The notes under the pieces: model-generated
What the model was told of the DNA's origin: nothing
Seen by the model: the letters and a program-made list of their open reading frames with translations, nothing else
The model's database searches: none
Position numbers and translations under genes: made by a program
DNA from: a virus
Length of the DNA stretch: 26,755 nt
IMG/VR virus record: IMGVR_UViG_3300046777_000499
Coordinates: 1-26,755 of that record
Direction: 5' to 3' (one strand)
In this document: positions 9,839-13,188 of the stretch, in pieces
Layout of the letters: each line of letters begins with the position of its first letter
Position numbering within the stretch: the first letter of the stretch is position 1

Positions 9839-9936
9839 TGCAATGTGGTGTAATGGCAGCACAGGAAGTCCGAGACGCCGAAAGGTGGAGTAGGCAATCA
9901 AAATGCCAGGTATGGGTTCGATTCCCAACATTGCAA
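9839..9936 (+). tRNA. Unusual tRNA-like gene with about 30-nt insertion (apparent anticodon CAA)
   Basis: Acceptor TGCAATG/CATTGCA is perfectly paired, D stem GTG/CAC is present, and the T arm TGGG-TTCGATT-CCCA is good. Between the D arm and a GGCA/TGCC hairpin (loop ATCAAAA, anticodon CAA, Leu UUG) lie about 30 extra bases that contain a CGCC-GAAA-GGTG hairpin. CCA is not encoded, unlike nearly all its neighbours. It may be a tRNA needing processing, a decayed tRNA or a tRNA-like RNA. Confidence 0.5.
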
Positions 9937-10021: not shown

Positions 10022-10032
10022 AAATTATTTTG

Positions 10033-10317: not shown

Positions 10318-10393
10318 GGGGGATTAGCTCATCTGGGAGAGCGCCTGCTTTGCAAGCAGGAGGTGATCGGTTCGAGTCCGATATTCTCCACCA
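10318..10393 (+). tRNA. tRNA-Ala (anticodon TGC)
   Basis: Acceptor GGGGGAT/ATTCTCC, anticodon stem CCTGC/GCAGG with loop TTTGCAA, encoded CCA. Confidence 0.95.
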
Positions 10394-10422
10394 TTTATTT
10401 TAGGTAATGTGCGTTTTAAGGG

Positions 10423-10451
10423 TGTACATTATCTAAGTTCTTTGATAGAGT
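10423..10451 (+). promoter_or_regulatory. Early-type phage promoter for the large structured RNA
   Basis: TGTACA at 10423-10428, 17 bases, TAGAGT at 10446-10451. The predicted RNA start near 10458 leads directly into the gene-less structured region. Confidence 0.72.
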
Positions 10452-10457
10452 AAGAAA

Positions 10458-11412
10458 ATAACAAATGGCGGTATAGCGTCATTAGGGTAAGATCCGGTAA
10501 CGGATCCCAAAGCAGTAAAGCCTACGCAGCTGCGCTCGCAAGAGTCCATCTATACAAGCCCAAGTTAGAGTTGACTCGATCTCGGTCGAAAGCAACTCAG
10601 CGTCAGTAGGATGGCGTAAGGCAGTAAGTTGAAGTTGTAGTCCGAAAGGATAGGAACAGAGCCAGTCGGTGAGTTCCAAGAGGCTGTGGTGGCCGAGCTG
10701 CAACACACCAAGTCAACGAATGCTGCATACTAATGGGTAGTTACAGAGTCTGACCTCGCAAGGAAAGGCAATGTAGCAATGCAAGCGAAGAAGGGATAAC
10801 CGGATCCGCGAAGCATGGTTGATTAGGCCGCAAGCCGAAAGACATTAGGCGTGTTGTATTTTGCATCTCAAAAGGATGTGAAGCGACAGGGACAGCACGT
10901 CTTGGTAGGTTACTTTGCAAATAGCTCATCTGGTAGAGCAAGAGTGTATGAAACTTTAGGTAGTTGGTTCGATTCCAACTTTGCAACCCAAAGAAAAACG
11001 CAAAGACTGTCCCGGCATCATGTGAAAGGTGCTTAATACCACAGCGAAAGCAATGTGGTTCATGGAAGCTCGCAAGGCGGAAGTGATTGATTGGATTGAA
11101 GACGTAGGAGGTTAGCGCCTTCGAACAGCTCGCAAGGCTGGCGGAAGATTGATGGTCGAATAGCATGATGTGACACGAGAAACGCCACTCGTTAAAAAAG
11201 GCAGCACTGAGTGATACTCGATGATCCGTGAGGACTCGAGTGGATAACGGATTAACACTCCTCGCAAGGGAGTCGGTACGGTCCAAAGGCACTCATCAGA
11301 AGCTGTAATCTCAGGCTTCATAAGTATCGTTAGATGAGCATTGATCGGAGCCGTAAAGCCCGGACCATGGTGATGTTGCTCGAATTACCGTCAGTGTTCT
11401 TCTAACGATATT
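10458..11412 (+). ncRNA. Candidate giant structured non-coding RNA (about 950 nt) with embedded tRNA
   Basis: No plausible plus-strand gene lies between tRNA-Ala and tRNA-Phe. The stretch has its own promoter and is packed with short perfect hairpins: GATCCG-GTAA-CGGATC (10491-10506), CTC-GCAA-GAG (10535-10544), GAGTTG/CAACTC (10568/10593) enclosing TCGAT/GTCGA, TCC-GAAA-GGA (10641-10650), GGAAC/GTTCC (10653/10673), GGC-CGCAA-GCC (10826-10836), CATC/GATG (10864/10875), CCACA/TGTGG enclosing GC-GAAA-GC (11039-11058), CAGC/GCTG (11126/11137), ATCCGT/ACGGAT (11224/11247), ACTCC/GGAGT (11257/11269) and TATCGTTAGA/TCTAACGATA (11325/11401). GNRA loops recur. A tRNA-like cloverleaf sits inside a GGGACAG/CTGTCCC stem. 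Size, phage context, tRNA neighbours and an internal tRNA recall the GOLLD class, and ROOL more loosely; identity is not proven. The 3' end is set by the last stem. Confidence 0.72.
10915..10990 (+). tRNA. tRNA-like cloverleaf embedded in the structured RNA (apparent anticodon ATG)
   Basis: Acceptor TTGCAAA/TTTGCAA fully paired, D stem GCTC/GAGC, anticodon stem AGAGT/ACTTT with loop GTATGAA, T stem GTTGG/CCAAC with TTCGATT loop, C73 and encoded CCA. Anticodon ATG would read CAT (His) and C73 fits His, but the extra 5' G is absent and an ordinary His tRNA exists at 9203. It lies between GGGACAG (10889-10895) and CTGTCCC (11007-11013). Confidence 0.75.
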
Positions 11413-11413
11413 T

Positions 11414-11489
11414 GCCTTTGTAGCTCAGTTGGTAGAGCAGTGGATTGAAGATCCACGTGTCGGGGGTTCGACTCCCTCCGAAGGCACCA
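11414..11489 (+). tRNA. tRNA-Phe (anticodon GAA)
   Basis: Acceptor GCCTTTG/CGAAGGC, anticodon stem GTGGA/TCCAC with loop TTGAAGA, encoded CCA. Starts 3 bases after the last stem of the structured RNA, so both may be cut from one transcript. Confidence 0.95.
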
Positions 11490-11573: not shown

Positions 11574-11580
11574 AGTTTAT

Positions 11581-11692
11581 TGGCCCTAAGTCGGGTGAGA
11601 ATGTGTTCCGCGCGGGATTCTGTAGAGAGGTTCGAAACTCTTAAAGGAATTAAAAAGCACTAAGGTGGGTTCGAGTCCCACGGGTCAGCCAA
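11581..11692 (+). other. tRNA-like element of atypical layout (about 112 nt)
   Basis: The ends pair as TGGCCC/GGGTCA, followed by G and an encoded CCA. A good T arm GTGGG-TTCGAGT-CCCAC precedes the 3' acceptor half. Between them are two hairpins (AGAAT/ATTCT with inner CC/GG, and GAGAG/CTCTT) and an A-rich linker, with no convincing anticodon arm. It may be a tRNA with insertions, a decayed gene or a tRNA mimic. Confidence 0.5.
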
Positions 11693-11699
11693 GTTTAAT

Positions 11700-11870: not shown

Positions 11871-11945
11871 GACTCTATAGCACAATGGTCAGTGCAGGCA
11901 ATTCTAAACTGTTTGATGAGGGTTCGACTCCCTCTAGAGTCACCA
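11871..11945 (+). tRNA. tRNA of uncertain identity (CTA amber-suppressor-like, or TCT Arg)
   Basis: Acceptor GACTCTA/TAGAGTC, D stem GCAC/GTGC and T stem GAGGG/CCCTC are perfect; CCA is encoded. The best anticodon stem, GGCAA/CTGTT (two G-T pairs, one mismatch), places loop TTCTAAA with anticodon CTA. Shifting by one gives TCT but almost no stem. Confidence 0.75.
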
Positions 11946-12674: not shown

Positions 12675-13188
12675 ATTTATACCCTTGCAGCGGATGCATA
12701 CAAAGCAAGGTGAGTAACTAAGCCCGAGAACTAGCAGGCGCTCGGTAGATGATGGGGTAAGAAGCCCAAGTTATGCTAGAGTTTAAGTGGCGGGATATCT
12801 TTACAGGTAATGCTGGTCTCCGTTAGTCCACTCAACCTCGGTACGTTGTCAAACTGCCGGCCATTTTGCTCTTGATCTGGGACACGGTGATCCGTGCATT
12901 TAGACTAAGATCCGGCTCCGAGGCCGGTACGTAGGGGAGGATCCTACAGAGCAAACACCGCCGCCCGTATGGTGTATAACAATCCCGGGCCTAGTTTTAG
13001 ATATCGTTGCCGACGGGTGACGTAAGAAGTGTGGCTGAATAACACCCTCGCCAGTGGGGGTAAGGCAGGCTCGGGGAGTGGTCCTCCCGCTCAACCGGCG
13101 AACGAGTCGTAGACCGAGATTACGATAGGTAATTGGCTGGGTCTTGGAGGTATAGCCAAATCCTCCCACTTCGCATATATAGTATTAC
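12675..13188 (+). ncRNA. Second candidate structured RNA region (about 510 nt) with a tRNA-like domain
   Basis: No convincing gene lies here. Hairpins seen include CCTTGC/GCAAGG near 12684-12712, CCGAG/CTCGG near 12724-12746, CTAGCA/TGCTAG near 12727-12779 (an alternative to the former), ACCCTC/GGGGGT and GGGAG-TGGTC-CTCCC in 13040-13090, and GGAGG/CCTCC near 13147-13166. A segment at 12866-12954 has tRNA-like geometry: TTGCTCT/AGAGCAA closing pairs, a CCGGC/GCCGG long variable-like arm and a GTAGG-(7)-CCTAC T-like arm directly abutting the acceptor strand, but with no TTC in the loop and no paired anticodon arm. It lies between tRNA-Asn and tRNA-Gly on one likely transcript. Confidence 0.5.

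Follow-up and report, generated by a model that had tools for sequence, protein, structure and literature searches.

A tract of about 950 nucleotides between two tRNA genes of a virus raises two questions: which kind of RNA it encodes, and why this RNA should hold a tRNA cloverleaf. The window, i.e., the whole stretch of DNA analysed here (26,755 nucleotides, IMG/VR record IMGVR_UViG_3300046777_000499), is a 26.8-kb virus contig that encodes a T4-type clamp loader, UvsX and DNA polymerase, and that carries a large tRNA array in which 27 tRNA genes are identified by ARAGORN. The tract is located 3' of tRNA-Ala (10318-10393) and 5' of tRNA-Phe (11414-11489) and is without a credible gene. A first-pass annotation had described it as a gene-less, highly structured stretch with an internal tRNA, either a divergent GOLLD RNA or a new class in a T4-like phage; the gene-less interval and the tRNA inside it, at 10915-10990, are confirmed.

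The function of GOLLD RNAs has, to our knowledge, been an open question since 2009. Structures determined using cryo-EM revealed that GOLLD forms a hollow, 14-meric cage with the linker inside (Kretsch et al. 2025, PMC12286853), which sharpens the question of what the cage is for. In the solved RNA the linker is short and disordered (nt 497-538), and phage-encoded tRNAs sometimes sit in the GOLLD linker (Kretsch 2025, PMC12286853); a mycobacterial GOLLD found in a tRNA array contains a "pseudo tRNA" (PMC6582537, PMC9569102). Both the cage (Kretsch 2025) and the presence of a tRNA inside GOLLD (Kretsch 2025 and the mycobacterial case) are already known. What looks new, as judged from the comparison of sequences presented here, is a maintained fold with an eroded acceptor, a hypervariable anticodon loop and a circularly permuted version. 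No description of the hypervariable loop or the permuted version was found in the literature on GOLLD together with tRNA-like elements or anticodons, a set outside which the founding papers (Weinberg 2009, Morgado 2020) lie, so that this constitutes weak evidence of novelty. The comparison separates the parts of GOLLD into a kept tRNA fold, a decaying aminoacylation end and an anticodon loop that changes fastest, and in this way the statement that tRNAs are sometimes found inside GOLLD becomes a testable claim.

Identity and structure of the GOLLD RNA

The Rfam model for GOLLD (RF02032), which spans the 3' domain only, matches the window over its entire length (model positions 1-416 of 416) at 10846-11317, with 179.2 bits and E = 4.2e-49 (cmscan), as compared with a curated cut-off, i.e., gathering score, of 150 bits. 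ROOL yields no Rfam match at the gathering score anywhere in the window. This comparison with the two Rfam models, proposed in the first-pass annotation, bears out a divergent GOLLD in a phage with T4-type replication genes, in agreement also with the noted size and degree of structure, and speaks against a new class. The stretch is a GOLLD RNA, a divergent member of the known family in a T4-like phage, and we regard this assignment as practically certain. Open reading frames of 61-183 aa do overlap the stretch on both strands, but a coding region, or an RNA class other than GOLLD, is extremely improbable given the full-length Rfam match, the covariation seen in both domains and the many indels that separate the relatives.

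The window shares with known GOLLDs not only the end-to-end match above the cut-off, but also a separate, less conserved 5' domain next to the conserved 3' domain, a location within a phage tRNA array and a variable linker at the same place in the 3' domain; as in some known members, a tRNA is found in this linker, where it forms an insertion opposite the AU-rich linker of the model (Rfam scan). The sequence is far from that of the lake-type GOLLDs, which reach 270-322 bits with RF02032, whereas the clade of the window scores about 160-220 bits (179 for the window); relatives also exceed the cut-off (Rfam scan). The window differs from known GOLLDs in that its linker is a cloverleaf enclosed by a pseudoknot (helix H2 below) and in a covarying terminal helix past the end of the Rfam model. 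ROOL RNA is similar in size, in its phage and tRNA-array context and in forming cages, but is not matched in the window. The features, all on the plus strand, are:

10399-10451 (+): putative GOLLD transcript start region, with an imperfect hairpin (10399-10437) and a weak sigma-70-like site, TGTACA-17-TAGAGT
10466-10845 (+): GOLLD 5' domain, shared with full-length homologs (nhmmer); by homology, it corresponds to the half-shell's cap in the solved GOLLD cage
10846-11317 (+): GOLLD 3' domain (cmscan, RF02032, 179.2 bits)
10847-10853 (+): 5' strand of helix H1, AGGCGTG, pairing with 10896-10902; 99.2% of cells paired in 52 relatives
10889-10895 (+): 5' strand of helix H2, GGGACAG, in a pseudoknot with H1 that closes the linker
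10896-10902 (+): 3' strand of helix H1, CACGTCT, pairing with 10847-10853
10915-10990 (+): tRNA-like structure in the linker (tRNA-His AUG in ARAGORN; Rfam tRNA, 55.3 bits)
10915-10921/10980-10986 (+): acceptor of this structure (7 bp), followed by C 10987 and CCA 10988-10990
10946-10952 (+): its anticodon loop, GTATGAA, with anticodon ATG at 10948-10950; the hypervariable spot of the family
11007-11013 (+): 3' strand of helix H2, CTGTCCC, pairing with 10889-10895
11318-11412 (+): 3' tail beyond the Rfam model, with a covarying terminal helix (11325-11334/11401-11410)

Folded alone, the sequence surpasses its dinucleotide shuffles by a modest margin only (z = -2.3), and it is therefore covariation that proves the structure. 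The consensus fold of the 5' domain contains 60 pairs, of which 56 display two-sided changes (RNAalifold, 48 relatives). In a plain MAFFT alignment of 52 relatives, on which pairs were counted, 94.7% of cells are paired and the covariation score is 0.593, compared with 0.172 for shuffles and at most 0.108 for slid alignments; both domains thus covary, as the first-pass annotation had proposed to check. The 7-bp stem GGGACAG/CTGTCCC, which that annotation placed around the internal tRNA, is helix H2, with 99.2% of cells paired and two-sided changes at 6 of 7 pairs in the 52 relatives. Its 5' strand lies inside helix H1, and H2 is therefore a pseudoknot that closes the linker.

The perfect 10-bp stem near the 3' end (11325-11334 with 11401-11410) is also present as described earlier, and in many relatives another complementary stem is found at this site, e.g., ACTTATTAGA/TCTAATAAGT, ACTGTTTAGA/TCTAAACAGT or ACTATTTTGA/TCAAAATAGT; the longest stem is on average 8.8 bp, compared with 6.4 bp in shuffles (n=51). 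Other structural claims fared less well. Hairpins capped by GNRA loops are enriched, i.e., four with at least three Watson-Crick pairs are found, compared with 0.65 in shuffles, but they are not "many". The joining of the two ends by GGCGGTA and TACCGTC is not upheld, as one of its pairs would have to be G-U, 39 relatives show no exact equivalent, and a local hairpin that covaries competes for the same bases. Below the tRNA-like element, a "base helix" (CTTTGC/GCAAAG in the window; many relatives have TTCGC/GCGAA) appears to covary when inspected by eye, but the register of the alignment shifts here, and the helix is not claimed.

A promoter of the phage's own type had been placed at 10423-10451. 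The site does have one partial twin, at 10032 (3 mismatches), but as a sigma-70 promoter it scores 8/12, which equals the mean of its own shuffles, and it was rejected in that capacity. Just upstream of GOLLD in 14 of 52 relatives there are sigma-70 promoters scoring 10-12/12, which makes independent transcription of GOLLD plausible for the family.

The tRNA-like element in the linker

A sample of 77 distinct GOLLDs of the window's clade, each with both linker flanks, was assembled from earlier loci and from pattern scans of viral contigs (two, both complete) and genome contigs (one); the Vibrio phage matches H26-H54, which match the tRNA part only, were excluded. A fixed parser that requires at least 4/5 pairs in each of the anticodon and T arms finds a cloverleaf in the linker of 59 of these 77, to which inspection by eye adds three with irregular loops (L356, L358, L388) and two that are permuted (L347, L055). 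No cloverleaf is recognisable in the linkers of 13 of the 77, and some members have unrelated linkers of 29-56 nt. Because these 13 occur within the clade and an internal tRNA is found in none of 13 lake-type GOLLDs (Rfam scan), the tRNA-like module is optional.

As a control, 298 distinct tRNAs encoded in the arrays of these contigs were analysed with the same parser as the 54 internal elements compared here. On average, the D, anticodon and T arms of the internal elements hold 13.87 of 14 pairs (13.58 in the array tRNAs), while the acceptor holds 5.2 of 7 (6.59) and CCA is found in 3 of 54 (284 of 298). The three elements bearing CCA are those of the window and of L337 and L342, which share one element, and a fully paired acceptor (7/7) is found only in the window. 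Counted on the plain alignment, 99.0, 95.4 and 99.6% of cells are paired in the D, anticodon and T arms, respectively, with many two-sided changes; the six outer acceptor pairs are paired in 66.4% of cells, and the two outermost fail in most sequences that have letters at these positions. The anticodon loop is mostly 7 nt long, 9 of the 54 elements having loops of 6, 8 or 9 nt, and U33 is retained in 49 of 54.

As a family, the internal elements lack what characterizes a functional tRNA, i.e., a 7-bp acceptor, CCA and an anticodon tied to the body. Because the arms are kept, the acceptor and CCA are eroded and the anticodon loop is replaced (see below), the element of the family is very probably a maintained tRNA-like structure and not a decoding tRNA. 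The copy in the window, with its cloverleaf, 7-bp acceptor and CCA, could itself function as a tRNA, so that the earlier wording, an intact tRNA cloverleaf, fits the window sequence but is misleading for its relatives with their eroded acceptors and replaced anticodon loops.

YrlA and other bacterial Y RNAs carry a tRNA-mimicking module. They resemble GOLLD, by description, as larger non-coding RNAs with a tRNA-like module, but variation of the anticodon loop is specific to the elements described here. The mycobacterial GOLLD likewise lies inside a tRNA array and holds a degenerate tRNA; there, a single element was judged to be a pseudogene, whereas here the arms are maintained, the acceptor is eroded and the loops are replaced in many lineages.

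Two lineages hold the tRNA in a different connection. In L347 (7570-7700) and L055 (4740-4850; copy L380), loci that exceed the GOLLD cut-off and in which no tRNA is called, the linker contains a circularly permuted tRNA with a 7-bp acceptor and CCA, in the order T arm, acceptor 3' strand, CCA, short loop, acceptor 5' strand, D arm and anticodon arm. ARAGORN finds no tRNA in the L347 and L055 linkers in their native order; once the parts are rearranged to the normal order, it reports Ile GAT for L347 and either Lys CTT or Ser TGA for L055, depending on the joining point. From the permuted order it follows that the fold is joined to the RNA via the variable region and not via the acceptor, and because two lineages hold this version, the fold is conserved despite the changed connection.

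The 7-bp acceptor and CCA of both permuted versions, the seven acceptor pairs, encoded CCA and C73 of the window (C73 being found in many tRNA-His), and the term phage-encoded tRNAs used by Kretsch 2025 (PMC12286853) would all suit an ordinary decoding tRNA that is freed by RNase P and 3' processing while the GOLLD halves are held together by H2. As an account of the internal element this is nevertheless improbable, considering that only the window has a 7/7 acceptor, that only 3 of 54 elements have CCA, that 9 of them have a loop length other than 7 nt (6, 8 or 9 nt in these 54), and that varied anticodons on near-identical bodies misfit a fixed aminoacylation identity. Furthermore, the array of the window already contains a tRNA-His GTG, and in mycobacteria the related copy was described as a pseudo tRNA whose expression went undetected (PMC6582537).

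Replacement of the anticodon loop and its possible purpose

Judged by comparison of close relatives, the anticodon loop has been replaced repeatedly, by point change, by change of loop length or by exchange of the whole element. When pairs whose bodies diverge by no more than 5% are compared, different anticodons are seen in 16 of the 18 internal pairs, which derive from few lineages and are non-independent, and in 0 of 30 array pairs. Near-identical bodies bear Lys, Gly, Arg, Ser or Glu anticodons, and when anticodon classes are mapped on a tree built from the GOLLD cores without their linkers, at least 35 changes are needed among 54 rows, where the changes, as the pairs, are non-independent events. 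The loops are also often unchanged between relatives (L244/L002, L332/L371, L337/L342).

The cultured Caulobacter phages CcrMagneto and phiCbK offer a natural experiment, i.e., two GOLLDs that are near-identical outside the loop and differ within it: three differences are found in the 8-column loop stretch (CTCTTAA vs CGTCCTA) and two in the other ~890 bases. Each of six more cultured Caulobacter phages has either the CcrMagneto or the phiCbK loop. In a separate lineage, the near-identical GOLLDs of L392 and L369 similarly have three differences in the loop stretch and three elsewhere (850 or more bases). Relative to a uniform rate, the binomial p for the excess in the loop is about 1e-6; padding the rate raises it to between 1e-5 and 2e-5. 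An intramolecular partner of the loop is unlikely, as the CcrMagneto and phiCbK loops change at three positions while only two other bases differ, and for this reason a partner of the anticodon loop would act in trans. Kissing between identical loops was also considered and rejected, the loops not being self-complementary (by eye).

GOLLD cores that are 97% identical may hold internal elements that are only 56-67% identical, from which it follows that whole elements are exchanged. Such swaps, the location of GOLLD within tRNA arrays and the unrelated 29-56 nt linkers of some members are what would be expected if the linker were a tolerated insertion site, into which tRNA sequences enter by recombination within tRNA arrays and then drift neutrally. 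We consider this scenario unlikely. Neutral drift would break the arms and U33 too, but the arms remain 95-99.6% paired through abundant two-sided changes, on a par with the array tRNAs, and the internal elements draw on a sequence pool of their own, with the nearest sequence being another internal element, and not an array tRNA, in 48 of 54.

A tRNA look-alike with a replaced loop is a clue to a possible role of the cage. The best explanation as a whole, which we put forward tentatively, is that of a GOLLD cage with a tRNA-like specificity module that serves as bait. By homology to the solved member, the GOLLD of the window would assemble into a hollow cage with the linker facing the lumen, and the cloverleaf would, by analogy, be located inside the cage also in the window's clade. 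Selection keeps the D, anticodon and T arms and mostly not the acceptor end, as the comparison shows, and the element would display the elbow of a tRNA, together with a chosen anticodon stem-loop, to tRNA-recognizing proteins of the host. The likeliest targets would be the anticodon nucleases of anti-phage defence, and up to 14 baits per cage could bind or occupy the target proteins during infection.

Phage tRNAs counter host anticodon nucleases (eLife 2023, Nat Commun 2024; PMC10264068, PMC11555353), and the phage's own tRNA array may counter the same proteins. These anti-nuclease tRNAs are similar to the GOLLD element in being phage-borne tRNA folds with anticodon loops that are apparently shaped by host nucleases, but they work in translation, while the GOLLD element is mostly without an acceptor end and CCA. 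The narrower statement that the element is bait for host proteins that read the anticodon is doubtful. A little more doubtful still is its extension to cages as programmable tRNA-mimic traps with ~14 baits each, in which the exchangeable loop could be re-specified quickly to the tRNA-reading defence of the current host and in which two lineages would display a permuted bait with a free CCA.

The same retained U33 (49 of 54) and the loops of mostly 7 nt would suit binding at a decoding site, and pull-downs cited by Kretsch 2025 (PMC12286853) indicate that ribosomes bind GOLLD. The element may thus anchor GOLLD at the ribosomal A, P or E site or to translation factors, such that the cage sequesters or stalls host ribosomes. 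There is a small probability that this is so: ribosome binding is reported for GOLLD generally, while many GOLLDs are without the element, and the replacement of the anticodon would be left without a clear reason.

The locus in relatives and neighbouring RNA elements

In close relatives of the window (80-94% identity of a flanking protein), the interval between tRNA-Ala and tRNA-Phe is without GOLLD, which shows that GOLLD is dispensable for the lineage. Instead, the place of GOLLD is occupied in these close relatives by another conserved RNA-like element of ~120-145 nt. This element is found 3' of tRNA-Ala in relatives (L257:11096-11242, also L260, L268, L276, L277, L280, L283, L306, L309, L315, L318, L325, L327 and L330). 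It has a closing stem, GACCACCT/AGGTGGTC, and the inner motifs GCTGAACCC, GGGAAGAT and CGTCCGGA (L257 and others). The copy in L257, the one that was scanned, has no Rfam match at the gathering score, and the element is possibly an undescribed RNA family.

A different rearrangement is seen in L086 (6467-6922; L120 is the same), where the GOLLD 5' domain continues directly into the final 60 nt of its 3' domain, the remainder of which is absent. Permuted or alphaproteobacterial tmRNA genes are found within a few kb of GOLLD in L002, L244, L004, L246, L247 and L055, and in a 121-kb virus contig a Pistol ribozyme (L438:2960-3027, 47.4 bits) is located just downstream of a match to the GOLLD 3'-end pattern.

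Two tRNA-like genes of the window itself, at 9839-9936 and 11578-11695 (98 and about 115 nt, respectively), have inserts or arms of unusual length, and neither is called by ARAGORN; the Rfam tRNA model identifies the one at 9839-9936 with 38.8 bits. The array tRNA at 11871-11945 has the anticodon CTA (tRNA-Pyl in ARAGORN) and is a possible amber suppressor. A manA RNA motif (RF01745, 59.3 bits) at 13005-13176 adjoins tRNA-Gly, and a manA motif is also found in L257.
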